Origin: Bacillota bacterium
GTDB lineage: Bacteria > Bacillota > Limnochordia > Limnochordales > Limnochordaceae
Length of the DNA: 64,000 bases
Direction: 5' to 3'
NCBI GenBank assembly: GCA_017577405.1
Contig: PIUA01000021.1
Span: 167,002 to 231,001, forward strand
Numbering within the stretch: position 1 is the first letter of the stretch; every line of letters begins with the position of its first letter. The notes beneath the pieces were generated by a model. That model ran no database searches and was not told where the DNA came from. It worked only from the letters and a program-made list of their open reading frames with translations. The position numbers and the translations under genes are program-made. Positions 6,146 to 21,206 of the stretch are shown piece by piece.

Positions 6146-8962
6146 TTGTTGTCAAGTCAGTCAGCGCAGCGTCCCCAGGAGCGTGGCCAGGGCGGGATCG
6201 CTGACCACCTTCGCTGGGCGACGGCCGAGGTCGAGGCTGTAACCCAGGAGCTGAAGGTTGATGCCCATCAAGGTCTCCCGTCCGACGAGGCGGCTCGCCG
6301 GCTGGAGACGCATGGTCCCAATCGTTTGGCCGAAGCCCCGGGCCGGAGCTTCTTCCAGATGGTTTGGGATCAGATCACCGAGCCGCTGGTCCTAATCCTC
6401 ATCGGCGCCGCGCTCCTCTCCGCCGTCTTAGGCGAGTGGGCGGACGTCGTCGTTATCCTCGCCATCGTCATCCTCAACGCCCTCCTCGGTGCCTCGCAGG
6501 AGCAGCGGGCCGAGGCGTCCCTGGCGGCCTTGAAGAAGATGGGCGCGCCCACGGCCCGGGTCCTCCGGGACGGCCGGGTGCGGGAGGTGCCCGCGGAGGA
6601 ACTGGTCCCGGGGGACGTGATCCTCTTGGAAGCGGGGGACAGCGTGCCCGCCGACGCCCGGATTCTGGAGTCCGCCTCCCTCCGAACCGATGAGGCGGCC
6701 TTGACGGGGGAGTCGGAACCCGTGGAGAAGGGGCACCGACCCCTCGACCCCGAGAAGGTCCACGGTCTGGGCGACCTGGGGAACCTGGTCTTCAACGGCA
6801 CCACCGTGGCCTACGGGCGGGGGCGGGCGGTGGTCTATGCCACCGGGATGGAGACGGCCCTGGGCCAGATCGCCGGCCTCCTGGCCGATGAACCCCAGGA
6901 GCAGACCCCCCTGCAGCGTCGGATGGGCGAAGTGGGGCGGACCCTGGGGCTGGCCGCCGGTGTCCTGGTCCTCCTCGTCTTCGGTATGGGCCTCATCCGG
7001 GGCGAGGAGCTCATCACCATGCTCCTTACAGCCGTCAGCTTGGCGGTGGCCGCCATTCCCGAAGGGCTGCCGGCCATTGTGACCATCGTTCTGGCCCTGG
7101 GTGTGCAACGGATGGCCGCCCGGCGGGCCATCATCCGCCGCTTGCCGGCGGTGGAGACCTTGGGCACGGCCACCGTGATCGCTTCCGACAAGACGGGCAC
7201 CCTGACCCTGAACCGGATGACCGTCACCCACCTGGTGACGGCCGAAGGCGAGCTGGATCTCTCCGATGGGAGCAGCGAGGCCGCCGCGGCTCAGGGCGCC
7301 CCGGCGGTGGCCGCCGTCCCCGAGGCGACGGGCCCCGACGGGGTGCTGGCCCCCACCGTCGCCTGGCTGGTGGCGGGGGGCGCCTTGGCCAACGACAGCC
7401 GGTTGGAGGAAGAGGACGGCACCGTGCGGGCCATCGGCGATCCGACCGAGACCGCCCTCCTGGCCGTCGCCCGGCGCCTGGGCGTCAGCCTCAGCCGGCT
7501 TGACCGGGCCTTCCCCCGGGTGGCCGAACTCCCCTTCGACTCGGACCGGAAGCGGATGACCACCTTCCACCGCCCGGAGGCCGGGGCGGAGGACCTGGTG
7601 CCCGGGATCACCCAGCTGGGCGAGCTGGTCGCCTTCACCAAGGGCGCCCCTGACGTGGTGATCGAGCGCTGCCAGTCCATCCTGGGCCCCGATGGCGTCC
7701 GGCCGCTCAAGGATGAGGACCGGCAGAAGCTCCTGGCCGCCAACGAGCGCCTGGCCGGCCAGGCCCTCCGGGTCTTGGCCGTCGCCTGCCGGGCCTGGCC
7801 GGCGGTGCCCGATCCCCTGGAGCCGGAGACGGCGGAAGACGAGCTGATCTTCCTGGGGTTGATGGGGATGCTCGATCCGCCCCGTCCCGAGGTGGCCCAG
7901 GCCATCCGGGAGGCGAAGGGCGCAGGCATTCGCACCATCATGGTGACGGGCGACCATGCCATCACCGCGGCCGCCATCGCCAAGCGCTTGGAGCTGGTCG
8001 ATCCGGGCCAGGAGCCGGAGATCATCTCGGGCCGGGAGCTGGAGACCATCGACGACGAGACCCTGAAGGAGAAGGTCCGGACCGTCTCGGTCTTCGCCCG
8101 GGTGAGCCCCGAGCACAAGCTCCGGATCGTCCGGGCCCTCAAGGCCAACGGGGCGGTGGTGGCGGTGACGGGCGACGGCGTCAACGATGCGCCGGCCCTC
8201 AAGGGGGCGGACATCGGCTGCGCCATGGGCATCACCGGCACCGACGTCTCCCGGAGTGCGGCCGACATGGTGCTGGCCGACGACAACTACGCCACCATCG
8301 TCTCGGCCGTCCGGGAAGGGCGGGTCATTTACGCCAACATCCGGAAGGCCATCCACTACCTGCTCTCGTGCAACATCGGCGAGATCGTGGCCATCTTCTT
8401 CGGTATCGCGCTGGGCCTGGGCTCGCCTCTGACGCCCATCCAGATCCTCTGGGTCAACCTGGTGACTGACGGGCTCCCCGCGCTCGCCCTGGGGGTGGAG
8501 CCGGCCGAGCCGGGTGTCATGGAGCGTCGGCCCCGCAGCCCGAAGGAGAGCATCTTCAGCGGCGGCCTGGGCTGGCAGATGCTCTGGCAGGGGGCCATGA
8601 TCGGGTTCCTCACCCTGGGCCTCTACTGGTGGGGTCTCATGTACCTGACGCCGGGTGAGGCCCGGACCCTCGCCTTCGCCACCCTGGCTTTTACCCAGCT
8701 GGCCCACAGCTTCAATGTGCGCTCCACCCACGCCAGCCTCTTCCAGATCGGCTGGTTCTCCAACCGGGCGCTCCTCCTGGCGGTGGCCGCCTCGGCCTTG
8801 CTCCAGGTTACGGTGCTGGCCGTTCCCTTCCTGGCGCCCTTCTTCGATGTGGTGCCGCTGTCCATCCTGGACCTGGAGCTCCTCCTGGTGGCCACGGTCA
8901 CGCCGTGGGTGGTGGTGGAGCTGTACAAGGCCATCCGCCGTTGGGTGGTGAAGGAAGCCTGA
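6146..8962 (+). CDS. Cation-translocating P-type ATPase (P2-type, calcium-transporter-like)
   Basis: 938 aa; TGES, DKTGTLT, GDGVNDAPALKGADIG motifs and N-terminal cation-ATPase domain. Confidence 0.9.
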   Translation: MLSSQSAQRPQERGQGGIADHLRWATAEVEAVTQELKVDAHQGLPSDEAARRLETHGPNRLAEAPGRSFFQMVWDQITEPLVLILIGAALLSAVLGEWADVVVILAIVILNALLGASQEQRAEASLAALKKMGAPTARVLRDGRVREVPAEELVPGDVILLEAGDSVPADARILESASLRTDEAALTGESEPVEKGHRPLDPEKVHGLGDLGNLVFNGTTVAYGRGRAVVYATGMETALGQIAGLLADEPQEQTPLQRRMGEVGRTLGLAAGVLVLLVFGMGLIRGEELITMLLTAVSLAVAAIPEGLPAIVTIVLALGVQRMAARRAIIRRLPAVETLGTATVIASDKTGTLTLNRMTVTHLVTAEGELDLSDGSSEAAAAQGAPAVAAVPEATGPDGVLAPTVAWLVAGGALANDSRLEEEDGTVRAIGDPTETALLAVARRLGVSLSRLDRAFPRVAELPFDSDRKRMTTFHRPEAGAEDLVPGITQLGELVAFTKGAPDVVIERCQSILGPDGVRPLKDEDRQKLLAANERLAGQALRVLAVACRAWPAVPDPLEPETAEDELIFLGLMGMLDPPRPEVAQAIREAKGAGIRTIMVTGDHAITAAAIAKRLELVDPGQEPEIISGRELETIDDETLKEKVRTVSVFARVSPEHKLRIVRALKANGAVVAVTGDGVNDAPALKGADIGCAMGITGTDVSRSAADMVLADDNYATIVSAVREGRVIYANIRKAIHYLLSCNIGEIVAIFFGIALGLGSPLTPIQILWVNLVTDGLPALALGVEPAEPGVMERRPRSPKESIFSGGLGWQMLWQGAMIGFLTLGLYWWGLMYLTPGEARTLAFATLAFTQLAHSFNVRSTHASLFQIGWFSNRALLLAVAASALLQVTVLAVPFLAPFFDVVPLSILDLELLLVATVTPWVVVELYKAIRRWVVKEA

Positions 8963-9069
8963 CGGGCTGAAGGCCGAACTCGCGGAAGATAGTGAAAGGA
9001 GCCCCTCCCTCAAGGGCTTCGGCCCCGCCTCCGACACAAAAGGGTGGGGCCGAAGGGGAGGGGCTCTTG

Positions 9070-10212
9070 GTGCGTTTGGTTCCACTGGAGGCCGTGTCCC
9101 CAGGGACCATGCTGGGGCGCGACCTCATGTTGGATGAACGGACTCTCTTGCGGGCGGGCGTCCGGCTCAGCCCCCACATGCTCCGTCGTTTGGCCCAACT
9201 GGGCTTTGAGGCGGTCTGGATCTGCGAGCCGGGGGAGATCCCCGCCGGCTCCACCGGCGAGTTGCTGACCGAAGAGACCCGGCAAGCCTCCATGCGAGCT
9301 TTGAAGCGGTACGTGCATCGCCTGCGCAAGGGGTATGCGGGCGATCTCCGGCCCATCGCCGCGGTCGTCTCCCAGATCCTCGATGAGATCCTGGCCAACT
9401 CGTCGGTCTTGGTGGAGCTCACCGCCATCCGGGGCCTGTTGGACGAGCAGGAGTATCTCTTCGCCCACTCGGTCCGGGTGGCCGCCTTGACCCTCCTCCT
9501 CGGCCTCCACAGCGGGCTTGATCCCAGAGAGCTGACCGTTCTGGGCATGGGCGCCCTCCTCCACGATGTGGGGAAGGTCCGGGTGCCCCTCTCCATCTTG
9601 ACCAAGGAGGGGCCCCTGACCCAGGAGGAACGGGCTCAGATCCAGCTCCACCCCGTCCACGGCTTCGAGATCCTCCGGCGCCACCGGGAGCTGGACCGGC
9701 GGGCGGTCCACGTGGCCTACCAGCACCACGAGCGCTGGGACGGCTCGGGGTATCCCCGGGGCCTCCAGGGGACGGAGATCCACCGGTTCGCCCGCCTAAC
9801 GGCCGTGGCCGATGTCTTCGACGCCCTCACCAGCCCCCGCCCCTACCGGCCCGCCTGGCCCGTCCACCAGGCCTTGACCTTCATCGCCGATGAGGGGGGG
9901 CGCAGCCTGGACCCAGCGGTCGTCCGCACGTTCCTCGCCCGGGTCGCCCCTTACCCCGTGGGCACCCTGGTCCGCCTCAACACCGGCGAGGAAGCCCTGG
10001 TGGTCCGCCTCAACCCCATCGCCCCGGCCCGGCCTGTGGTCCGGGTCTGGAACGGGGAGGCCCGGGGGACGGAGGTGGACCTGCTCACCCGTCTGGAGTG
10101 GCGGATCGTCGGCCCCGTGACCGACCCTCTCCCCGACGGGGAGGCCCCAGGGGGCGGGGCCCTTAGGGGAGCTGGACCCGGTAGCGCCGGAGCCAGTGAT
10201 CCAGCTGGATGA
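9070..10212 (+). CDS. HD-GYP domain protein (putative c-di-GMP phosphodiesterase)
   Basis: HDVGKVRVP...HHERWDGSGYPRGLQGTEI; ORF is open from 8992 but the first codons lie in a hairpin, so GTG 9070 (SD GGAGGGG) is preferred. Confidence 0.85.
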   Translation: MRLVPLEAVSPGTMLGRDLMLDERTLLRAGVRLSPHMLRRLAQLGFEAVWICEPGEIPAGSTGELLTEETRQASMRALKRYVHRLRKGYAGDLRPIAAVVSQILDEILANSSVLVELTAIRGLLDEQEYLFAHSVRVAALTLLLGLHSGLDPRELTVLGMGALLHDVGKVRVPLSILTKEGPLTQEERAQIQLHPVHGFEILRRHRELDRRAVHVAYQHHERWDGSGYPRGLQGTEIHRFARLTAVADVFDALTSPRPYRPAWPVHQALTFIADEGGRSLDPAVVRTFLARVAPYPVGTLVRLNTGEEALVVRLNPIAPARPVVRVWNGEARGTEVDLLTRLEWRIVGPVTDPLPDGEAPGGGALRGAGPGSAGASDPAG

Positions 10213-12001
10213 GGTACGCCAGGAGCTGGGGCAGGCGCATGAGCTGGCCGAAGAAGGGCACGTCCAGATCGGGGGCCTCCTTCTGGAGCAGCCGGACCAG
10301 GTGCCTCCGGTCCACCAGGCCCAAAAGGGGTGAGGACCGGTCGGCCAGGATCTCCAAGAGCCACCCGCGGACCGCCGCCAGGTAGGCGGGGTGATGGGTC
10401 TTGGGGAAGGGGCTCTTCCGCCGCTCGAGGACTTCCGGCGGGAGAAGCCCGGCCAGCGCCCGGCGGAGGAGCCCCTTCGGCACGCCGTCCAGCGCCTTGA
10501 GGGCCCAGGGAACGTTCCAGACGTACCCGACCAGGCGGGGGTCCAGGAAGGGAAGGCGGAGCTCCAGCCCCGCCGCGGCGCTCATTCGATCGGCCCGGTC
10601 CAGGAGGACGGGGAGCCACCGGGTCAGGGTGAGGTAGAGCCGCTCCCGGGCCCGGGCCTCGTCGGGCGTCTCGCCGGCCAGGCGAGGCACCTCCTCCAGG
10701 GCTTCCCGGTACCGCCGCTCCAGGTAGGCGTGGGGCTGGAGCTCCGCCACCACCTCGGGGGCCAGGAGGGCAAGGCGGGCAGGAAGCCGCCGCACCCAGG
10801 GAAAGGTGGAGGCTTCCAGGTCCTGGGGCCGCCAGAACCACGGGTAGCCCCCGAAGACCTCATCGGCCCCCTCCCCCGAGAGGGCGACGGGCGCCGCGGT
10901 CCGGATCCGCTGGGCGAAGAGGTAGAGGGACGCGTCCACGTCGGCCATGCCCGGCAGATCCCGGGCCTCCGCCGCGGCAGGCAAGGCGGCCACCAGGTCC
11001 GCTGGCTCCAGGTGCACCTCCCGGTGCTCGCCCCCCAGGAAGGCGGCCACCCGCCGGGCCCAGGGCCCGTCGGCCGCCGGTTGGAACTCGTCGGGCTGGA
11101 AGTGGGTCTCGTTCCCCGCGTGCTCCAGGGAGAAGGTGAGGAGCGGACCGCCCCGCCGCTGGCGGTGCCGGGCCGCCAGGGCGGAGACCGCGCTCGAGTC
11201 CAGCCCTCCCGACAGTAGGGAAGCGATGGGGGCCTCCCGGGGGACATGGCGCGCGACGGCGTCCTCCAGAAGGGCCCGGACGTGGTCCAGGGTGGTGGCC
11301 AGGTCGTGGGGGTGGGGGCGGCTCTCCAGCCGCCAGTAGGTTCCGCTCTTGAGCCCGTCGCGACCGGCCTCCAGCCAAGCTCCGGGCCGCAGCTCGGCCA
11401 CGCCGCGGAAGATGCCGTGTCCAGGGGTCCGGGCCGGCCCCAGCACCAGCACCTCCGCCAGCCCCTCCCGGTCCAGCGCCGGCTCCACGGCCGGGTGGGC
11501 CAGCAGGGCCTTCAGCTCCGAGGCGAAGAGGAACGCCCCCGGGCGGGCGGCGTAGAAGAGGGGCTTCACCCCCAGCGGGTCCCGGGCGAGGAAGAGGCGC
11601 TCCCGGCGCGTGCTCCAGATGGCGCAGGCGAAGACCCCGTTGAGGCGGCTGAGGCCCTGGGCACCCCACTGGGCGTAGGCGGCCAGAATCAGCTCCCCGT
11701 CCGAAGGATCCGGGAGGGGATGACCCCGGGCCGCCAGCTCGGACCGGAGCTCGGCCCCATTGTACAGCTGGCCGTCCCACACCAGGGCCAACGTCTCCCC
11801 GCTCCAGTGGCGGACCAGAGGCTGGGTGGGACCGGTCCCGTCGCCGCCCAGCCGACGGTGGCCCAGGGCCGCGTGGGGCGAGAGCCAAATCCCCTGGCCG
11901 TCCGGGCCCCGGTTCTTGAGCGTGGCGCCCATGGCCTCCAACCGGGCTCCCTCCCGGGTTAGGTCCGCCTCCCAGCTGATCCATCCCACGATGCCGCTCA
12001 C
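10163..12001 (-). CDS. Asparagine synthase-related protein (AsnB family) with Ser replacing the N-terminal Cys
   Basis: Synthetase motifs SLLSGGLDSSAVSALAA and SGEGADEVFGGYPWFW intact; N-terminus from GTG 12001 reads (M)SGIVGWISWEAD, family norm is MCGI. Confidence 0.88.
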   Translation of the reverse strand: MSGIVGWISWEADLTREGARLEAMGATLKNRGPDGQGIWLSPHAALGHRRLGGDGTGPTQPLVRHWSGETLALVWDGQLYNGAELRSELAARGHPLPDPSDGELILAAYAQWGAQGLSRLNGVFACAIWSTRRERLFLARDPLGVKPLFYAARPGAFLFASELKALLAHPAVEPALDREGLAEVLVLGPARTPGHGIFRGVAELRPGAWLEAGRDGLKSGTYWRLESRPHPHDLATTLDHVRALLEDAVARHVPREAPIASLLSGGLDSSAVSALAARHRQRRGGPLLTFSLEHAGNETHFQPDEFQPAADGPWARRVAAFLGGEHREVHLEPADLVAALPAAAEARDLPGMADVDASLYLFAQRIRTAAPVALSGEGADEVFGGYPWFWRPQDLEASTFPWVRRLPARLALLAPEVVAELQPHAYLERRYREALEEVPRLAGETPDEARARERLYLTLTRWLPVLLDRADRMSAAAGLELRLPFLDPRLVGYVWNVPWALKALDGVPKGLLRRALAGLLPPEVLERRKSPFPKTHHPAYLAAVRGWLLEILADRSSPLLGLVDRRHLVRLLQKEAPDLDVPFFGQLMRLPQLLAYLIQLDHWLRRYRVQLP

Positions 12002-12096
12002 CGGTGTCACCCCTCTCCCGTGGGCTGCGGTCACCCCGTCCGGTGCAGGCTACGCTCCCCCGCGCCGGCCTGTGCCCCGGGGCCGACCCCCGCCGA

Positions 12097-12184: not shown

Positions 12185-13633
12185 GTGGCGAAGGAAGAGC
12201 CGCTGGTCAAGGAGATCGTACCCCAGTCGGAGGATTTCTCGGCCTGGTACATCAGTGTCATCCGCAAGGCCGACCTGATGGACTACGCGCCGGTGCGGGG
12301 CTGCATCGTCTTCAAGCCCGACGGGTACGAGCTGTGGGAGGCCTGCCAGGAGGGCCTCAACCGCCGGTTCAAGGCGACGGGGCACCGGAATGCCTACTTC
12401 CCCACCTTGGTCCCCGAGAGCTTCTTCGAGAAAGAGAAGGAGCACGTGGAGGGCTTTGCGCCTGAGCTGCCCTGGGTGACCGAGGTGGGCGACGAGGAGC
12501 TGGAGGAGCGGCTCGCCCTCCGCCCAACCTCGGAGACCATCATCGGCCACATGTACGCCCGCTGGATCAAGTCCTACCGGGACCTGCCCGTCCTTATCAA
12601 CCAGTGGGCCAACGTCTTTCGCTGGGAGAAGCGGACCCTGCCCTTCTTGCGGACCACCGAGTTCCTCTGGCAGGAGGGCCACACGGCCCACGCCACCGAG
12701 GAGGAGGCCCGGGAGGAGACCTTGCGGATGCTCGAGGTCTACCGGGACTTTGTGGAGACGGACCTGGCCATCCCCGTGATCAAGGGGCAGAAGACCCCCC
12801 GGGAGCGGTTCGCCGGGGCGGTGGAGACCTACTCCATCGAGGCCATGATGAAGGACGGCAAGGCGGTCCAGGCGGGCACCTCCCACTACCTGGGGACCAA
12901 CTTCGCCCAGGGCTTCGGCATCCAGTTCCTGGACCGGGACAACCAGCTCAAGTACGTCCACACCACCTCGTGGGGGGTGTCCACCCGCCTGATCGGCTGC
13001 CTGATCATGGTCCACGGCGACGACCGGGGCCTGGCCCTGCCACCCAAGGTGGCCCCCACCCAGGTGATCCTCATCCCCATCGGCCCGGCCAAAGTGCGGG
13101 ACCAGGTGGTGGCCCGGGCGAAAGAGCTGCTCCAAGCCCTGCAGGCCGCGGGCGTGCGCGCCCGGCTGGACGACCGGGACGAGTACTCGCCGGGGTGGAA
13201 GTTCGCCGAGTACGAGATGCGGGGGATCCCCCTCCGCCTGGAGCTGGGTCCCCGGGATCTGGAGCAGAACCAGGTGCTCGCGGTCCGGCGGGATACGGGC
13301 GAGAAGCTGCCCATCAGCCAGGATGGGCTGGTCGAGCGGGTGCAGGCCCTGCTGGAGGAGATTCAGGCCACCATGTTCCAGAAGGCCCTGGCCTTCCGGG
13401 AGGCCCACAGCTACCAGGCCGAAACCCTGGCGGAGCTGGCGGGCATCCTCCAGGAGAAGACGGGCTTTGTGCTGGCGGGGTGGTGCGGCGACGACGCCTG
13501 CGAGGTCAAGGTGAAGGAGGAGACCAAGGCGACGGCCCGCAACATCCCCTTCGACCCGCCGGCCCGGATGAAGCGGTGCCTGGTCTGCGGGCGGGAAGCC
13601 CAGCACACCGTCTGGTATGCGAGGGCGTACTGA
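12185..13633 (+). CDS. proS: Prolyl-tRNA synthetase (short archaeal/eukaryal-type ProS)
   Basis: 482 aa; KEIVPQSEDFSAWYISVIRKADLMDYAPVRGCIVFKPDGYELWE... class II aaRS, short type without the editing insertion. Confidence 0.93.
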   Translation: MAKEEPLVKEIVPQSEDFSAWYISVIRKADLMDYAPVRGCIVFKPDGYELWEACQEGLNRRFKATGHRNAYFPTLVPESFFEKEKEHVEGFAPELPWVTEVGDEELEERLALRPTSETIIGHMYARWIKSYRDLPVLINQWANVFRWEKRTLPFLRTTEFLWQEGHTAHATEEEAREETLRMLEVYRDFVETDLAIPVIKGQKTPRERFAGAVETYSIEAMMKDGKAVQAGTSHYLGTNFAQGFGIQFLDRDNQLKYVHTTSWGVSTRLIGCLIMVHGDDRGLALPPKVAPTQVILIPIGPAKVRDQVVARAKELLQALQAAGVRARLDDRDEYSPGWKFAEYEMRGIPLRLELGPRDLEQNQVLAVRRDTGEKLPISQDGLVERVQALLEEIQATMFQKALAFREAHSYQAETLAELAGILQEKTGFVLAGWCGDDACEVKVKEETKATARNIPFDPPARMKRCLVCGREAQHTVWYARAY

Positions 13634-13658
13634 ACCAGGTTCGGCGTCTGTGGATTGA

Positions 13659-13696
13659 GAGGCCCCGGCGGCCAGGCCGGGGCCTCGCCCTTCATT
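13659..13696. terminator. Possible bidirectional terminator between proS and methyltransferase gene
   Basis: GAGGCCCCGGC-GGCCAG-GCCGGGGCCTC, 11-bp perfect stem between convergent genes; weak T-tract. Confidence 0.6.
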
Positions 13697-14481
13697 CAGT
13701 CGTCATGGGCCGCTGGCCGGCGTCCCATCAGGAGCCCTTCGGTCAGGGTGAACCGGATATGTCCCGCCTCCGCCCGGGGCTTGAGCCAGGCCTGAACGGC
13801 AGGCGGGGCTTCCAGGACGAGCTGCCGGAGGGTGGCCAGAGTCAGGTTGCTCGCGCCCGAGCGGCGGGCCCAGGTCTCCAGGTCCCGCTCCTTCTGGAAA
13901 GTCTCCACCCATTCGACGGTCAGGCCCGCGTCTTGGAAGAAGCGGGTCCAATCATCCAGGCTGTAGGCCCAGTGGTGCGAGGGATCGTGCACTTTCTCAA
14001 AGGCGTTGACGTATTCGGCTACCGCGCGATCTTCAGGCACCACGTTGTCGATGACGGCGACGAGACCCCCGGGGCGGACCACCCGGACCGCCTCCCGGAC
14101 GAAGCGGGCCACGTCTGGGAAGTGGTGGGGCGCCACCCGGCAGGTCACGAGATCGAAGGAGGCGTCGGGGAAGGGAAGCGCCTCAGCGTCGGCCACGGCG
14201 AAGGTCACGTTGGTGACGCCTCGCTCGGTTGCATGGCGCGCCGCCGCCTGGACCATGGCTGGGGCCAAGTCGGTGGCGATGACCCGGCGTACCCGCGGCG
14301 CGAGGGCCAGGGCCGTGTGGCCCCCGCCCGTGGCCACATCGAGCACCTCCCAGTGGGGCTGGGGGTCCGCCAGTTCCACCAGCCGGTCCAGGCTCTCACT
14401 CCAGGCATGGTCCGGGCTTTGGACATAGGCTTCGGCATAGGTTCCAAACTGCTGACGATTCAGAGCTTTGAGACCATCCAT
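13696..14481 (-). CDS. Class I SAM-dependent methyltransferase
   Basis: VLDVATGGGHTALALA, DAEALPFPDASFDLVTCRVAPHHFPDVARFVREAVRVVRPGG motifs. Confidence 0.85.
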   Translation of the reverse strand: MDGLKALNRQQFGTYAEAYVQSPDHAWSESLDRLVELADPQPHWEVLDVATGGGHTALALAPRVRRVIATDLAPAMVQAAARHATERGVTNVTFAVADAEALPFPDASFDLVTCRVAPHHFPDVARFVREAVRVVRPGGLVAVIDNVVPEDRAVAEYVNAFEKVHDPSHHWAYSLDDWTRFFQDAGLTVEWVETFQKERDLETWARRSGASNLTLATLRQLVLEAPPAVQAWLKPRAEAGHIRFTLTEGLLMGRRPAAHDD

Positions 14482-14527
14482 GGCAAGAACATTTTAGCGG
14501 CCAAGGGCGCGACGGGCAAGGTTGGGG

Positions 14528-15850
14528 TCAGGCCGGGCCGAGCCCGTCCCGGAGGAGCTCCAGGTACTGGCCCACCTCCTGGAGGAGGTGGGCCAGCCGC
14601 TCCAGCGACTGGTCCGGTTCGCTGGTGAGCTGGACCATCTCCCGGTTGGTGAAGGTGTCCACCACCAGCATCACCAGCTCCAAGGCCCGGGCCGGGGGCA
14701 CGTCGGGCCGGAAGGGGGAGGTGTCGATCCCCTTCAGGAGCAGGGTCCAGCCCTCGGCCAAGCCCTCCACGGCGTACGCCTCCAGGGCCGGCCGGACGGC
14801 CTCTGGTGGGTTGGCGAAGGCGGCCAGAGAAAGCTGGTAGAGGGTTGGGAACGCCCGGAAGACCTGGACCTTCCGCTGGGACCAGGCGCAGATCCGCTGG
14901 AAGAGGTCGGCGGGGGGTGGGGGGAGATCCTGGAGGAAGGCGGTGGACATCTGCGTGGCGGCGTCGCCCACCGCCGCCAGGTAAAGGCCCGCCTTGGACC
15001 CGAAGTGGTGGAAGATGAGCCCCTTGGCCACCCCCGCCTCCTCGGCGATGGCCTCCGCGGAGGTCCCGTCGTACCCCCGGGCCGCGAAGAGCCTTTGAGC
15101 GGCCCGGAGGATGCGGTCCCGCCGCTGGTCGGGCTCCTTGGGGGAGGGGGCCAGTCGGGCGGTCAGGTTGAGGAACGCGGTGGGATCCCACTCACCCAGG
15201 GGCTGGGCGACGGCCGAACGTCCCGGCTGGTAGATGCCCTTCCGGAGCAGCTCCATCAGCGAGCGGACCTGCTCCCGGGCCGCCGCAGGCGTCACCGCTT
15301 CCAAGCCGCCCGCATTCAGCCTCTGGAGCCAGGTCGTCACCAGCCCTTCGGCCACCAAGCCGAGCAGGTCAATGGCCCGTTGGGGCGCGATCCCAGGCCG
15401 GAAGCTTTGAGGGGCGATCCCGGTGCAGAAGGCCACCCGCTGGTGATGGAGCCGCTCCTCCAGGCGGGCCCGGAAGGGCCCGCCCAGAATCCGGGCGCTC
15501 TGGCCCAGGAGGCGGCCCACGAGGCGGGCGTGCTCGGGGTAGGCGTGGAGGCGGCGGAGCTGCTCCATCAGGGCCGCCTCCAGCCGCTGGTACGGATCGG
15601 CCGGGAGGGGCTCCTCGATGGGGGCCAGGATGAGCGCCCACGCCTCCTCCAAGGCGGCCTCGTAGAGTGCCTGCTTGGAGCCGAAGTGGTGGAAGATGAG
15701 CCCCTTGGCCACCCGAGCCCGCTGGGCGATCCGGTTGGTGGACGCGCCCGCGTAGCTGGACCGGGCAAACTCCTCCACCGCCGCGGCCAAGACCCGGCGC
15801 CGGCGCTCCTCAGGGTCCCGGCGGGGCGCAGGCTGGCTCACAGGCGCCAC
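14528..15850 (-). CDS. Tandem (single-chain fused) TetR/AcrR-type transcriptional regulator
   Basis: 440 aa with two complete TetR N-terminal HTH domains (ASTNRIAQRARVAKGLIFHHFGSKQALYEAAL and TSAEAIAEEAGVAKGLIFHHFGSKAGLYLAAV) 227 residues apart. Confidence 0.92.
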   Translation of the reverse strand: MAPVSQPAPRRDPEERRRRVLAAAVEEFARSSYAGASTNRIAQRARVAKGLIFHHFGSKQALYEAALEEAWALILAPIEEPLPADPYQRLEAALMEQLRRLHAYPEHARLVGRLLGQSARILGGPFRARLEERLHHQRVAFCTGIAPQSFRPGIAPQRAIDLLGLVAEGLVTTWLQRLNAGGLEAVTPAAAREQVRSLMELLRKGIYQPGRSAVAQPLGEWDPTAFLNLTARLAPSPKEPDQRRDRILRAAQRLFAARGYDGTSAEAIAEEAGVAKGLIFHHFGSKAGLYLAAVGDAATQMSTAFLQDLPPPPADLFQRICAWSQRKVQVFRAFPTLYQLSLAAFANPPEAVRPALEAYAVEGLAEGWTLLLKGIDTSPFRPDVPPARALELVMLVVDTFTNREMVQLTSEPDQSLERLAHLLQEVGQYLELLRDGLGPA

Positions 15851-15864
15851 CTCCCTCCTTCAGC

Positions 15865-16884
15865 CTAAAGATAATACCGCAGGGCCGTTCGGACCAGCCA
15901 GGTGGCTCCGCGGGCGAGGGAGAGCCGACCCAGGCTCACCTCCACGTCGCTGGTGCCCGGCACCAGCTCGTAGGTGGCGGTCAGACCCCACTGGGTCTGG
16001 GGCGTCTCCTCCAGCGTGGCGGCCCCGTCCAGGCTGATGCTGAGGCCGAGGGTGGGGGCGTAGGCCAGCTGAAGGGCGGCCAGCGGCTCAGGGGGCTGGT
16101 CAGGCAGGAAGGGCGCCCGGGCCACCTCTCCCGTCCAGAGGAGGTCGCCCGCGTAGCCCGTGGCCCCCACCGCGGCCCGGGGCCGGGCCTCGCCGGGGAC
16201 CACCCACCCTTCCCCGTAGACCACCACCGAGCCGACCAAGCCGCTCCCGCCCAAGCCGGCGACCAGGCGGCCGGCCTCCAGCACCCCGTGGGCCGTCAGC
16301 TCCCAGCCCGAGAAGGCCCGCCGCCAGCCGGCGACCGGGGCCCAGCCGTCACCCCTCTGGACCAGGGCCAGCTGGAGGCGGTCGTCCGCCAGGTAGAGGT
16401 CGGCCCGGGCCCCGTCCACCCCGGGCCGGCGCCCGTGCTCGTCTCGGGGGGTGATGGTGTACGGTTGGGTGAGGCGGGCCGTCTCCAGGGGCAGGAGGAT
16501 GCGTCCCACCTGGAGGTCGCCCAGGGGTGCCCGGAAGGCCAGGTACCCCTCAATCAGCCCCAGGGAGAACGGTTCGACCGGGGTTCCGGCGCCCGCCAGG
16601 GGGAGCCTCGGCTCGGCGGTGAGGGCCACCTGCCAGGGCCCACGGGCCAGGTGCCCCTCCAGGTGGGCGGCCAGGGTCGCCGCCGTCTGGGAGGAGACGT
16701 CGTCGAGACGCCGGTGGTCGACCTCCAGACCGACGGACCCCCAGAGATCCACCGAGCCCCCGAGAGACCTCTGGGCTGCGACCCCTGCGGCGAGAAGCAG
16801 GAAGCCCACCGCCACCGCCAGGGCTTTCCCCAACGCCCGGCGCCAGTGGCCGGCGGGGCCGGTGGGCCGCCTCGTCGCCCTCAT
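15865..16884 (-). CDS. Secreted protein, predicted outer-membrane beta-barrel
   Basis: N-terminal signal sequence (ALAVAVGFLLLAAGVAAQ); alternating beta-strand-like composition; C-terminal strand ends TALRYYL; inside the ABC/LolA-like operon. Confidence 0.55.
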   Translation of the reverse strand: MRATRRPTGPAGHWRRALGKALAVAVGFLLLAAGVAAQRSLGGSVDLWGSVGLEVDHRRLDDVSSQTAATLAAHLEGHLARGPWQVALTAEPRLPLAGAGTPVEPFSLGLIEGYLAFRAPLGDLQVGRILLPLETARLTQPYTITPRDEHGRRPGVDGARADLYLADDRLQLALVQRGDGWAPVAGWRRAFSGWELTAHGVLEAGRLVAGLGGSGLVGSVVVYGEGWVVPGEARPRAAVGATGYAGDLLWTGEVARAPFLPDQPPEPLAALQLAYAPTLGLSISLDGAATLEETPQTQWGLTATYELVPGTSDVEVSLGRLSLARGATWLVRTALRYYL

Positions 16885-17576
16885 GCCCCCGGCCCCCTCT
16901 CATCACGCACCACCCGCCCGTCCTCCAGCCGGACGATGCGGGTGACGTGCTCCAGCAGGCGGGGATCGTGGGTGGAGAAGACGAAGGTGACGCCTTGCTC
17001 CTGGTTGAGCCGCTTCATCAGCTCGATGAGGGCCCGGCCCGTCTGGGAGTCCAGGTTGGCCGTGGGCTCATCGGCCAAGATCACCTGGGGCTCCGCGGCC
17101 AGGGCCCGGGCGATGGCCACCCGCTGCTGCTGGCCGCCCGAAAGCTGGTTGGGGCGCCGGTGGGCATACGCCGCCATGTCCAGAGCCTCCAAGGCGGCCA
17201 TCGCCTTGGCCTCCCGCTCCCGCCGGGGCCGCCCCTGGAGCTCCAGGACGAAGGCGGCATTCTCCAGGGCGGTTAGGACGGGGATCAGGTTATACGCCTG
17301 GAAGACGAAGCCGATCTCCCAGAGGCGGACGTGGGCCAGCGCGACGGCGTCCAGCTGGTCGGTCCGCCGGTCCCCCAGCCAGGTCTCCCCGGCGGTGGGC
17401 CGGTCCAATCCCCCCAAGAGATGCAGGAGGGTGCTCTTGCCCGAACCGCTTGGGCCCGCGATGGCGGTGAACTCCCCCTTCTGGATGGTCAGGTCGACGC
17501 CCTGCAAGGCGGGCGTCTGGATCCCACCGGTGGTGTAGATCTTGGTGACTCCTTTGGCTTGCAGAATGGGTTCCAA
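16881..17576 (-). CDS. LolD/MacB-type ABC transporter ATP-binding protein
   Basis: 231 aa; GPSGSGKSTLLHLLGGLDRPTAGE, LSGGQQQRVAIARAL, ILADEPTANLD; 4-nt overlap with the barrel gene. Confidence 0.92.
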   Translation of the reverse strand: MEPILQAKGVTKIYTTGGIQTPALQGVDLTIQKGEFTAIAGPSGSGKSTLLHLLGGLDRPTAGETWLGDRRTDQLDAVALAHVRLWEIGFVFQAYNLIPVLTALENAAFVLELQGRPRREREAKAMAALEALDMAAYAHRRPNQLSGGQQQRVAIARALAAEPQVILADEPTANLDSQTGRALIELMKRLNQEQGVTFVFSTHDPRLLEHVTRIVRLEDGRVVRDERGPGA

Positions 17577-17637
17577 CCTTGCCGACCTCCTCCCTCACCG
17601 TGCAGGCCTGCTCGCCCGGGGCGGTGCCCCCGGAACG

Positions 17638-18867
17638 TCAGGTGACGTGCCGCATGGCTTCCACCGGCTGGAGCCGACCCGCCACCCAGGCGGGCCAGAG
17701 GGCCGCGGCCAGGGCGGTGCCCACCGCGAAGAGGATGGTGATCACCAGCTGGCCGGTGGTCAACCCGGCGTACATGACCGCCGGAATGCCGAACTCCACC
17801 GTGTACTCCGTCAGGGCATTGGGGAAGCGGAAGCCTTGGGCCAGCCGGGCGATAAGGCCCAACCCCAGGGCGGTGCCGACGGCCGTCCCCGTCAGGACCA
17901 ACACCAAGGACTCGCTGATGACCATCCGCATCACCCGCCAGCGGTCGGCGCCGAGGGCGATGATCACCCCGAACTCCCGGATCCGCTCGGCCAGGCTCAG
18001 GTAGACGGTGTTGACCACCAAGAGGCCCGCCAGGACGAAACCCAGCCCGTTGAACACGAGCATGATGGGATCCACCAGGTCCAGGAGGGTGGCCAGACCC
18101 GGCTCCGCTTCCCGCCAGGTCTTGACGTGCAGTTCGGGTCCCAGGGGCTGGGCGAGCCGGTCCCGAACCTGCTCGAGCCGGTCCTCGTCGGTGATCCGGT
18201 GGAGGTCTGGGAGGTGGAGCTGGAACCGGGTGGCCGCCTCGGGCGCGGCCAGCTCCTGAGCCGCCGCCAGGGAGACGTACGCGGTCCGGCCCTCCAGGGC
18301 CGCTTCGGGAAAGTCCAGAAGGCCCACCAGGGTGTAGGCGCCCGCGCCCAGACCTTCGGTGCCGGGAGCGAAGATGTAGACCACCTCACCCACGTCCACC
18401 CGCAGCGCCCGGGCCAAGGCCTCCCCGAGCACGATCTCGTCCAAGCTGTCGGGGTCCGGCAGCCGGCCGGCGCTCAGGTAATCCTGGGCAAACTGCCGTT
18501 CAAGGCCCGGGGTCTGGCGGAGGCCCACCAGCTGAATGCCCCGGGAGCGGGAGCCGCCGCTGGCCAGCACCGGGACCTCCAGGAGCACGGCCAGCTCCCC
18601 TTCACCGGCCACCTCCCGCAAGGCGGCCTCCACCCGGGCCGCTTCCCGGATCAGGTGAGCGTCGAACTCCCTGGCTTCATCGGCCCCTGCCCGGGTCACC
18701 ACCAGGTGGCCGGCCCGTTCGGTCAGCACCTGGAACATGCCGTTCTTCATGGCCTCGGCCAGCCCGAAGAAGAGGAGGGTGGAGAGGACTACCAGGGCGA
18801 CGGCACTGGCGGTGACCAGGCTGCGGGCCTTCTGACGCCACAGGTTCCGCCACGCCAGACGCCACAC
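17638..18867 (-). CDS. FtsX-like / LolC-E-type ABC transporter permease
   Basis: 409 aa; N-terminal TM (WRLAWRNLWRQKARSLVTASAVALVVL), large periplasmic domain, C-terminal FtsX (VNTVYLSLAERIREFGVIIALGADRWRVMRMVISESLVLVL). Confidence 0.88.
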   Translation of the reverse strand: MWRLAWRNLWRQKARSLVTASAVALVVLSTLLFFGLAEAMKNGMFQVLTERAGHLVVTRAGADEAREFDAHLIREAARVEAALREVAGEGELAVLLEVPVLASGGSRSRGIQLVGLRQTPGLERQFAQDYLSAGRLPDPDSLDEIVLGEALARALRVDVGEVVYIFAPGTEGLGAGAYTLVGLLDFPEAALEGRTAYVSLAAAQELAAPEAATRFQLHLPDLHRITDEDRLEQVRDRLAQPLGPELHVKTWREAEPGLATLLDLVDPIMLVFNGLGFVLAGLLVVNTVYLSLAERIREFGVIIALGADRWRVMRMVISESLVLVLTGTAVGTALGLGLIARLAQGFRFPNALTEYTVEFGIPAVMYAGLTTGQLVITILFAVGTALAAALWPAWVAGRLQPVEAMRHVT

Positions 18868-18868
18868 G

Positions 18869-19642
18869 TCAGCGGCCCCCCCGTTCCAGCGCTTGCAGGG
18901 TGAAGCTTCCGGCCGGCAGTTCGATCCCGAAGCGCGCGTCGCTCAGGCGCACCTCGGTCCGGTGGCCGGGGCGGGTGACGTCCTGGACCGCCATCCGCAG
19001 GGGAACCCACCGGTCCCCCACGGGGGTGTACTCGGAGAGCTCGGCCCGCTTCACCACATTCCCCCGCTGGTCGTAGTAGTCGATACGCTGGGGCACCAGC
19101 CGCTCCGCCTCCACCTCCAGCCGTACCTGGCCGTAGGGGGTGGGGGCGCCCGGCTTGGGCACCAGTTCCAGGGTGAGGGTCTGGCCGCTGGAGGCGAGGA
19201 TGGAAGGCGTGTAATCCTCTTCCAGGTCCCGTCCGGCCAGGTCGTTGTAGCTGATGTCCGAGCCCAGGAAGGCGCCGTTGCGGCCGCTGGGCGGGAGCCT
19301 CAGGGAGCGGCCCAGACGGGGGTTGTACACCCAGAGGTCATCTCCGTCGATCAGAAAGGCCTGGCCCGCCTCCCGGGGCGGTTGGACCACCCGGATCAGC
19401 CCCCGGTCCTCCCCGTCGCTGAGGACGGTCATGACATACTGGGTGGTCCGGTTGGGGCGCTCCACGGTGACGGTGTAGGTCCCCTCCAGAGTGCCGCCCC
19501 GGAGGTTGTCCACCACCCTCCGGACGATCTCCGTCGCATCGAGCTCCTGGGCCCCGGCGAGGAGGACCGCCCAGGTGGCTGCCAGCAGGGCCAGAAGGAG
19601 GATCCCCCAAGTCCTCAGCAACCGGTTCGCCATTCGAGCCAT
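18869..19642 (-). CDS. Outer membrane lipoprotein-sorting protein (LolA-like)
   Basis: Translation from ATG 19642: MARMANRLLRTWGILLLALLAATWAVLLAGAQELDATEIVRRVVDNLRGGTLEGTYTVTVERPNRTTQYVMTVLSDGEDRGLIRVVQPPREAGQAFLIDGDDLWVYNPRLGRSLRLPPSGRNGAFLGSDISYNDL, characteristic of the family. Confidence 0.85.
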   Translation of the reverse strand: MARMANRLLRTWGILLLALLAATWAVLLAGAQELDATEIVRRVVDNLRGGTLEGTYTVTVERPNRTTQYVMTVLSDGEDRGLIRVVQPPREAGQAFLIDGDDLWVYNPRLGRSLRLPPSGRNGAFLGSDISYNDLAGRDLEEDYTPSILASSGQTLTLELVPKPGAPTPYGQVRLEVEAERLVPQRIDYYDQRGNVVKRAELSEYTPVGDRWVPLRMAVQDVTRPGHRTEVRLSDARFGIELPAGSFTLQALERGGR

Positions 19643-19697
19643 GGCTTTCCCGCCTCCCATCGTTCCTTTCCTGGTGCTTCGGTTTCCCGGGGCGCGC

Positions 19698-20942
19698 CTA
19701 GGCACTCCGCATCGCCTCCGCGGGCTGGAGCCGGGCCGCCCGCCGGGCGGGGAACAGGGCGCTGAGCCCCACCGCCACCGCCACGGTGATGGCGGAGTAG
19801 AGGATGTACGCGGGCCGTACGGCGCCGTAGAACTCGTCGGCCAGGCCGGTCTCCTGGAATCCCTCGCCGACGGCGGCGAACAGGGGGCCCAAGAGGTTGT
19901 AGCTGGCCAGAAGCCAGGCGACGCCGTAGCCCAGGACCAGCCCGACCCCCCAGCCGACGGCGCAGGCCAAGAGCGCCTCGTAGGTGACCAGGGTGCCCAG
20001 CCGCCGGGGCGGCAGCCCCAGCGCGGCGATGACGCCGAACTCCCGGGTTCGCTCCAAGACGCTGACGAAGATGGTGCTGGCGACGGCCAGGGCGGCGAAG
20101 AGGCCGAGGAAGAGCCCGAGGGGCAGCGCGAAGGCCTTGCCTGCCTCGATGTCGCCCTTGATGGGGCCCACCAGATCCCAGGCCCCCCGAGCCTCCAGAC
20201 CCGGAGGAAGGACCTCCTGGACCCGCCGAGCCACCTCCCCTTCCCTTCCCCGGGGGACATCAAGGGCCAGGGTGGTCGCGGTGGCCACCCCCGTCAGGAG
20301 GCGCGCGTCCTCCAGGTGGCCCACGACCAGGGTCTCATCCAGCCCCGCCACCCCCGTCTCGGCCAGGCCCACCACCGTCAAGCCCAGGGCCTGGGGACCC
20401 GCCAGGGCGCCGGCGCTCACCACCACCCGCTCCCCCACTCGCACGTCGATCCGCTGGGCCAGCTCCTTCCCCAGGACCACCTCGCCGGGCCCTACCAGCC
20501 AGCGCCCTTCCCCGATCTTGTTGGGGATCTGGCTCACCCGCCCCTCGGCCGCGGGGTGGACGCCCCGGATCTCAGCCCCCACGGCGGCATAGGACGATTG
20601 GAGCAGGCCCGGGAAGACCAGGCGGGGCGCGACGGCCCGCACCCCCCGGACCTGGGCCACCGGCTCGATGACGCTCAAGTCGGCCAAGGCATGCTCGGGA
20701 TCGGGATCCTCGTGCCAGGCCGCCGACGCGATCCGGACCGGGGCGGCGATGTAGCGGGCGTAGGCGTTCATCACCGAACCTTCATAGCCATCGATGAAGC
20801 TCCAGTAGATCACCGTCGACAGGGTGGCGTAGGCCACCACGACGATCAGAAGCACCGTCCGCTGGCGGTGACGCCAGAGGTTGCGCCACGCCAGGCGAAC
20901 CAGCGGTGTGGCCGCTGCCCCCTTGGGCGCGGTGCTTGCCAT
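19698..20942 (-). CDS. FtsX-like / LolC-E-type ABC transporter permease (second)
   Basis: From ATG 20942: MASTAPKGAAATPLVRLAWRNLWRHRQRTVLLIVVVAYATLSTVIYWSFIDGYEGS...VLERTREFGVIAALGLPPRRLGTLVTYEALL; SD-like AAAGAGGTGGTGGAG. Confidence 0.88.
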   Translation of the reverse strand: MASTAPKGAAATPLVRLAWRNLWRHRQRTVLLIVVVAYATLSTVIYWSFIDGYEGSVMNAYARYIAAPVRIASAAWHEDPDPEHALADLSVIEPVAQVRGVRAVAPRLVFPGLLQSSYAAVGAEIRGVHPAAEGRVSQIPNKIGEGRWLVGPGEVVLGKELAQRIDVRVGERVVVSAGALAGPQALGLTVVGLAETGVAGLDETLVVGHLEDARLLTGVATATTLALDVPRGREGEVARRVQEVLPPGLEARGAWDLVGPIKGDIEAGKAFALPLGLFLGLFAALAVASTIFVSVLERTREFGVIAALGLPPRRLGTLVTYEALLACAVGWGVGLVLGYGVAWLLASYNLLGPLFAAVGEGFQETGLADEFYGAVRPAYILYSAITVAVAVGLSALFPARRAARLQPAEAMRSA

Positions 20943-20997
20943 CTCCACCACCTCTTTCCAGACCTCGGGGGGCCCGCCCCCGGCCGCCAGCGTCCAT

Positions 20998-21051
20998 ATT
21001 GACCATCCGGTCAGCACCTCCAGCATAGCCAAGATTGACCAGATGGTCAAT
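20998..21051 (-). promoter_or_regulatory. Operon promoter with two TetR-type palindromic operators
   Basis: Minus strand: TTGACC - 17 bp - TATGCT; palindrome ATTGACC-N4-GGTCAAT (21034-21051) covers the -35, palindrome TGACC-N4-GGTCA (21000-21013) covers the predicted start site. Confidence 0.75.
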
Positions 21052-21206
21052 ACCGGAGGTGGCTTGGACCACCCAGGCGGCGCCGTGGGCCGGCCTGAAC
21101 CGAGATGATCCCTCAGGGCCTCGGCAGCATACGGGTGGGGGAGGACAGGACCATTCCTGCGGTGTCCAGGCGGCCACTGGTGGGCCGCCCGGGGGGAGGG
21201 AGTGCC

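Follow-up and report, generated by a model that had tools for sequence, protein, structure and literature searches.

How do diderm bacteria outside the Proteobacteria move lipids and other hydrophobic compounds across the periplasm? This largely open question is raised by a six-gene cassette on the minus strand of a 64,000-nucleotide stretch of a Limnochordaceae genome (Bacillota, class Limnochordia; assembly GCA_017577405.1, contig PIUA01000021.1, positions 167,002 to 231,001), which we call the window and in whose numbering we give coordinates. The genome measures 2.25 Mb at 86% completeness, and the cassette lies in its contig C25 (our numbering). We consider it probable that the cassette specifies an exporter under local repression, whose FtsX-type ATP-binding cassette (ABC) pump loads a LolA-fold carrier with a hydrophobic cargo other than a lipoprotein, bound for an outer-membrane barrel. 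This reading builds on the gene content and operon layout, the predicted folds, the conservation of the cassette across phyla, its co-occurrence with Omp85 and an operator pair that is unique in the genome. The genes, from permease 1 to the regulator, are:

19698-20942, minus strand: FtsX/MacB_PCD permease 1 (PERM1), 414 amino acids (aa); Pfam FtsX and MacB_PCD
18869-19642, minus strand: LolA-like periplasmic carrier, 257 aa; PF17131
17638-18867, minus strand: FtsX/MacB_PCD permease 2 (PERM2), 409 aa; Pfam FtsX and MacB_PCD
16881-17576, minus strand: ABC ATPase of LolD/MacB type, 231 aa; Pfam ABC_tran, NCBIfam TIGR02211 at 217.9 bits
15865-16884, minus strand: predicted 18-stranded outer-membrane beta-barrel with signal peptide, 339 aa; AlphaFold2 and Foldseek
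14528-15850, minus strand: tandem TetR regulator with two TetR_N domains, 440 aa, final gene of the cassette; Pfam

A check of open reading frames (ORFs) on the window found the six genes exactly where the first-pass annotation, an earlier reading of this DNA from its letters alone, had placed them, in the order and sizes it gave and with the Pfam domains expected of FtsX permeases, a LolA-like protein, an ATPase and a tandem TetR. Successive genes are spaced by 55, 1, 61, -4 and 14 bp, and a scan of 13400-21200 turned up no terminator-like site. Other genomes keep the same genes in the same order at 30-65% identity, which excludes a chance arrangement. With FtsX and MacB_PCD permeases and a MacB/LolD-type ATPase, the pump belongs to the type VII (MacB/FtsX/LolCDE) superfamily of ABC transporters.

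The 339-aa protein, for which a barrel had been anticipated, was modelled with AlphaFold2 from the window protein and 12 relatives (predicted local distance difference test, pLDDT, 89.7; predicted template modelling score 0.79). The model shows an N-terminal helix, corresponding to the signal peptide, followed by 18 consecutive strands (residues 44-338), and its nearest folds in the PDB are AlgE, chitoporin, the OprD/Occ porins and other outer-membrane barrels (Foldseek, best E 1e-10, template modelling (TM) score, relative to the query, up to 0.65). The protein matched no family in Pfam or NCBIfam; signal peptide, strands and fold together predict an outer-membrane beta-barrel, and a non-barrel model, which would have spoken against the earlier proposal, did not appear. 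Across the 66 cassettes with a complete downstream ORF, the downstream protein has a signal-like N-terminus in 64 and ends in F, Y or W in 56, compared with 6.6% of background ORFs, which argues that a barrel is the constant partner of the cassette.

The supposition that the genome is diderm was corroborated by a search for lipopolysaccharide (LPS) and Bam genes, which found that it carries both LpxC and Omp85, and by the outer membrane that electron microscopy shows in Limnochordia isolates (PMC11456536); Omp85 is nearly universal in the class. Among 399 genomes of the phylum (thresholds E <= 1e-30 for the permease and E <= 1e-19 for a strong LolA_like match), Omp85 is present in 43 of the 44 with the permease family compared with 60 of the 355 others (Fisher p 7e-28), and in 72 of the 73 with a strong LolA_like match (p 4e-53), p-values that ignore shared ancestry and to that extent overstate the certainty, a point against our reading. 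Both patterns persist outside the window's class (32 of 33 permease genomes, 58 of 59 LolA_like genomes), the sole exception, G426, being a fragmented genome in an otherwise positive family. Weak LolA_like matches showed no association with Omp85 in the 399 genomes. A strong LolA-like gene accompanies the permease in 43 of its 44 genomes, and neighbourhoods outside the class mostly hold the permease pair, an ATPase, a LolA-like gene and a signal-peptide protein ending in YSF, YPF or similar. Since Omp85 accompanies both families, the cassette is not equally present in monoderm relatives, from which it is nearly absent; together with the barrel partner, this upholds the link to the outer membrane that had been drawn for the locus. 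LPS is unlikely to be an obligate cargo: the cassette also occurs in Thermus, Meiothermus and Truepera, and no LpxC was found in the Thermus and Deinobacterium control genomes. As a separate observation, LpxC is present in 31 of 73 Limnochordia genomes and missing altogether from families f8, f13, f15 and f5, despite near-universal Omp85; the loss of LPS in the class appears to have proceeded one family at a time.

The carrier matches the full length of the LolA_like profile PF17131 at 150.8 bits (gathering cut-off 30), has a hydrophobic N-terminal segment of signal type and lacks a lipobox cysteine. Its AlphaFold2 model (pLDDT 85.7) has the LolA fold, as the first-pass annotation had assumed, and the closest structures are 3bk5 of Vibrio, NE2245 of Nitrosomonas, LolA3 of Porphyromonas gingivalis and a DUF1329 protein (TM about 0.7-0.76), with true LolA and LolB scoring below the PF17131-type structures. 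For many PF17131 genes, 'outer membrane lipoprotein-sorting protein', assigned automatically, may be a misleading name. The carriers also share a C-terminal C-x9-C motif (as CFTLQALERGC), with both cysteines in 11 of 12 aligned orthologues; the window carrier reads SFTLQALERGG at its C-terminus (18869-18905), having lost both, and this suggests the paired loss of a disulfide.

When 73 Limnochordia genomes were searched with the window LolA-like protein, close orthologues at 50-64% identity were found in seven others, so that 8 of the 73 carry the cassette. The order permease-LolA-permease-ATPase is kept in all seven orthologous loci, and the barrel follows wherever the contig reaches far enough. 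The 40 LolA-like neighbourhoods read in the class divide into 8 of this type, 9 with the order ATPase-permease-permease-LolA and 21 that consist of a resistance-nodulation-division (RND, MMPL) pump, LolA and a barrel, some apparently fused; the remaining two are one contig end and one locus without a recognised partner. In a wider scan, an alignment of permease 1 was run against 84,980 species genomes, and the best 80 of 260 relatives were listed. Among these listed matches, the cassette occurs in Thermus, Meiothermus, Truepera, Armatimonadota and Bipolaricaulota at about 39-58% identity, and many gammaproteobacteria and members of other diderm phyla have, at about 30%, the order LolA-permease-permease-ATPase-barrel; in the two Bipolaricaulota loci no downstream barrel was recognised. 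The conservation that the first-pass annotation had proposed to survey in diderm Bacillota is therefore present in eight Limnochordia genomes and, for the core, in other diderm phyla. A related permease pair and ATPase stand in an Anaerolinea metagenome-assembled genome (L139, Chloroflexota) with a TetR and an adaptor lipoprotein of HlyD/MacA type, with neither LolA nor barrel, a single case on long branches. Reading by eye, we saw no recurrent neighbour flanking the orthologous cassettes, and a plasmid collection gave two weak matches only.

The two permeases fall into separate clades in a tree of 93 rows, PERM1 into A1 (100/100) and PERM2 into A2 (100/99), and each clade includes Limnochordia, Deinococcota, Armatimonadota and Bipolaricaulota. 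The duplication is therefore old, which favours an obligate heterodimer of PERM1 and PERM2. E. coli LolC and LolE join a separate LolF-like family of some Limnochordia (100/98), apart from the cassette permeases, with E. coli MacB and LolC on long branches whose exact placement is unsure.

Upstream of permease 1, the control region contains two TGACCnnnnGGTCA palindromes 36 bp apart, arranged around the promoter:

21036-21049: operator 1, palindrome TGACCATCTGGTCA, overlapping the -35 box; sequence comparison and genome count
21022-21050, minus strand: sigmaA-type promoter, TTGACC-17-TATGCT; promoter scan
21000-21013: operator 2, palindrome TGACCGGATGGTCA, between the -10 box and the first gene; sequence comparison and genome count

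A scan of 7.8 kb, where 0.3 promoter-like sites would be expected, gave two, this promoter among them, and the spacing TTGACC-17-TATGCT was also seen by eye in the orthologous locus L038. Exact TGACCNNNNGGTCA palindromes number three in the 2.25 Mb genome, and two of them form this pair, which makes the pair private to the cassette; a whole-genome operator search found the paired operator at this promoter only and hence no regulon. The same pair is present in three orthologous loci (L038, L042 and L043). The tandem TetR occurs in five genomes (that of the window and four other Limnochordia), including all four with the complete pair; in the fifth, G013, a nearby contig end prevents a judgement. 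In G005, G006 and G011, the last a fragmented assembly, the tandem TetR was not found and one or zero exact palindromes remain. Because the pair is unique in the genome, intact where the tandem TetR is present and not intact where it is absent, the regulation appears to be dedicated, and the tandem TetR likely binds the putative double operator. Deinococcota loci have a different small regulator gene upstream instead, MarR/GbsR-like by eye.

Beyond the regulator lies a gene that had been considered a possible seventh member:

13696-14481, minus strand: S-adenosylmethionine-dependent methyltransferase, neighbour and probably not a member; Pfam and neighbourhood comparison

It lies 46 bp downstream of the TetR gene, yet no homologue was found beside any orthologous cassette and a promoter-like site stands immediately upstream of it (14519-14491), so it probably does not belong to the cassette. 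Also adjoining are, by eye, a prolyl-tRNA synthetase of archaeal/eukaryote-like type (12185-13633, plus strand) and an asparagine synthetase (10163-12034, minus strand).

We hypothesise that, without inducer, the tandem TetR would sit on both promoter palindromes and keep the operon off, and that a ligand, probably the cargo or an envelope-stress signal, would free it from the promoter. The permease heterodimer would then extract a hydrophobic or amphiphilic cargo, which would be loaded into the carrier, in the open half-barrel of its LolA fold. After crossing the periplasm, the carrier would dock on the 18-stranded barrel, which could insert the cargo in the outer membrane or pass it outside. 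The carrier fold and the RND-powered analogues point to a cargo that is a small, lipid-like molecule and not a lipoprotein.

A narrower form of this exporter, with a different cargo, would be an efflux pump for toxic hydrophobes such as solvents, terpenes or drugs, induced by its substrate through TetR. TetR control with a dedicated operator is compatible with it, as are the accessory distribution and the presence of several LolA lines side by side in one genome (as many as 7 PF17131 matches), and deletion of the RND analogue AmeABCD of Castellaniella, the only analogue found with deletion evidence, lowers monoterpene tolerance (PMC6394551). With a cassette that has neither a MacA-type adaptor nor TolC, however, we regard a dedicated efflux role as possible but somewhat unlikely.

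The first-pass annotation had favoured a Lol-type route of diderm Bacillota, in which the pump would extract lipoproteins, the carrier would ferry them and the barrel would replace LolB or flip them to the surface. The solved structures closest to permease 1 are indeed LolF, LolE and LolC, the carrier has the LolA fold and LolD is the best NCBIfam match of the ATPase, but every NCBIfam Lol cut-off was missed: by the permeases for LolC/E (78-81 versus 362 bits), by the ATPase for LolD (TIGR02211, 217.9 versus 307.75 bits) and by the carrier for LolA (12.5 versus 112 bits). The LolC/E cut-off was passed by none of the 73 class genomes. Tree and cut-offs together rule out a canonical Lol identity and, by the tests available, the cassette is not a Lol system. 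It contains no LolB or other lipoprotein receptor, the search for LolB being confined to the cassette, and its occurrence is sporadic (8 of 73 genomes) and linked to a repressor. Gammaproteobacteria carrying the same core are known to have a normal Lol system anyway. Since the permeases lie outside the LolC/LolE/LolF clade, the cut-offs were missed and the distribution is sporadic, a lipoprotein cargo fits less well than a lipid or another hydrophobic one. From the literature, a Borrelia cluster with an Omp85 barrel has been proposed as a possible lipoprotein route (PMC13078400), but outer-membrane lipoproteins are reported to be lacking in diderm Terrabacteria (PMC11784454), and P. gingivalis LolA3, of PF17131 type, binds LolB weakly and lacks the arginine of LolA and the leucine of LolB, for which its authors suggested a separate function (PMC13103446). 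Overall, we judge lipoprotein sorting improbable. Elsewhere in the class, families f8, f9 and f13 hold LolF-LolD-like pairs (L209-L214) that fall together with E. coli LolC/LolE in the tree, some adjoining a putative lipoprotein gene; this contrasts with a 2024 review that places Lol, among diderm Terrabacteria, only in Halanaerobiales (PMC11784454).

An uptake route, in which the barrel would admit a hydrophobic nutrient, the carrier would move it inward and the inner-membrane unit would accept it, seems to us more doubtful still. To our knowledge, wherever the function of a type VII (FtsX/MacB_PCD) ABC transporter has been established, it is export or the transmission of force. The MMPL-LolA protein and putative porin of Thalassolituus (TOL_3187/3188) are induced by C28 alkane and tied to growth on it (PMC6304351), which would suit uptake, but the analogues cited are RND or FadL-type and not ABC. 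We give hardly any credence to a MacAB-like or FtsEX-like (cell-wall-hydrolase-regulating) unit with the LolA-like protein and barrel as incidental neighbours, a view that could draw on the FtsX/MacB_PCD domains and the Anaerolinea pair but conflicts with the strong LolA-like gene in 43 of 44 permease genomes and the terminal-aromatic protein that ends 56 of 66 cassettes.

Several points nevertheless weigh against the repressed exporter as we describe it. We infer the cargo, the direction of transport, the hand-over, the binding of TetR and the heterodimer, and extending the function of the analogues to the cassette is an extrapolation because none of them is of ABC type. PF17131 is present in control archaea that lack an outer membrane, so the carrier alone is no proof of an outer-membrane target. 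The window barrel ends in RYYL, its final YYL being without a terminal aromatic, whereas, of the six Limnochordia orthologues compared, five have LRWFF or LRYFF as their last residues. Finally, the gammaproteobacterial barrels have no detectable homology to those of Limnochordia and Deinococcota (hhalign probability 5.8%), and the fifth component may, because these two families lack a sequence link, have been recruited more than once.

The individual parts are of known kinds. The combination of a permease heterodimer, a PF17131 carrier, a porin-type barrel and a private double operator, and its spread, was not found described in the open-access literature, subscription papers lying outside the search. 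We tentatively propose that the cassette is one branch of a large, unnamed class of trans-envelope systems in which a diffusing LolA-fold carrier takes the place of a fixed bridge across the periplasm, the power comes from an RND pump or from a type VII ABC heterodimer, and a barrel instead of LolB forms the end. As this class spans Terrabacteria and Gracilicutes, Lol sorting may have arisen by specialisation from an older shuttle for lipids or hydrophobes; a recent review considers the origin of LolA and LolDF unclear (PMC11784454).

The cassette resembles Lol (LolCDE/LolDF, LolA, LolB) in its two FtsX permeases of about 400 aa, LolD-like ATPase and LolA-fold carrier, but differs in a carrier of PF17131 rather than PF03548, a barrel gene in the final place, the TetR link, the sporadic occurrence and the other permease clades. 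MacAB-TolC shares the FtsX/MacB_PCD type VII ABC export unit and uses a fixed HlyD-type bridge with a TolC exit, whereas the cassette has a soluble LolA-fold carrier and a porin-type barrel, and Pfam found no HlyD/MacA adaptor or TolC match among its proteins. AmeABCD likewise joins an inner-membrane pump, a LolA-superfamily periplasmic protein and an outer-membrane protein in one operon, but its pump is RND (HAE3), its carrier DUF1329 and its barrel DUF1302, with an extra AmeC, whereas the cassette is ABC-driven. The MmpL/RND-LolA-barrel operons have the same carrier superfamily, a predicted barrel where examined and often a TetR; their pump is proton-driven and seems, in one family of Limnochordia, to be fused with the carrier. 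Such an operon of P. gingivalis (TetR-MMPL-LolA-like) is among the genes most repressed by hemin (PMC10470040) and is also iron-responsive (PMC10434189). The window genome has a second LolA-like operon of its own with an MMPL/RND pump (L058/L002; G000:C47:52325-56880, locus 7325-11880); behind it comes a protein of 442 aa that matches Porin_4 weakly and has VRF at its C-terminus. In L074, L077 and other f13 genomes pump and LolA-like domain share one frame of about 1015-1060 aa, like TOL_3187. The nearest published proposal of ABC type is the Borrelia BBJ23-29 cluster, put forward computationally (PMC13078400), which also unites a type VII ABC unit, a LolA-like carrier and an outer-membrane barrel gene. 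It has one (homodimeric) permease, a barrel of the Omp85 family and two TPR proteins, whereas the cassette, among whose proteins Pfam found no Omp85 or TPR match, has a permease pair and a barrel with an AlgE/OprD-like fold.

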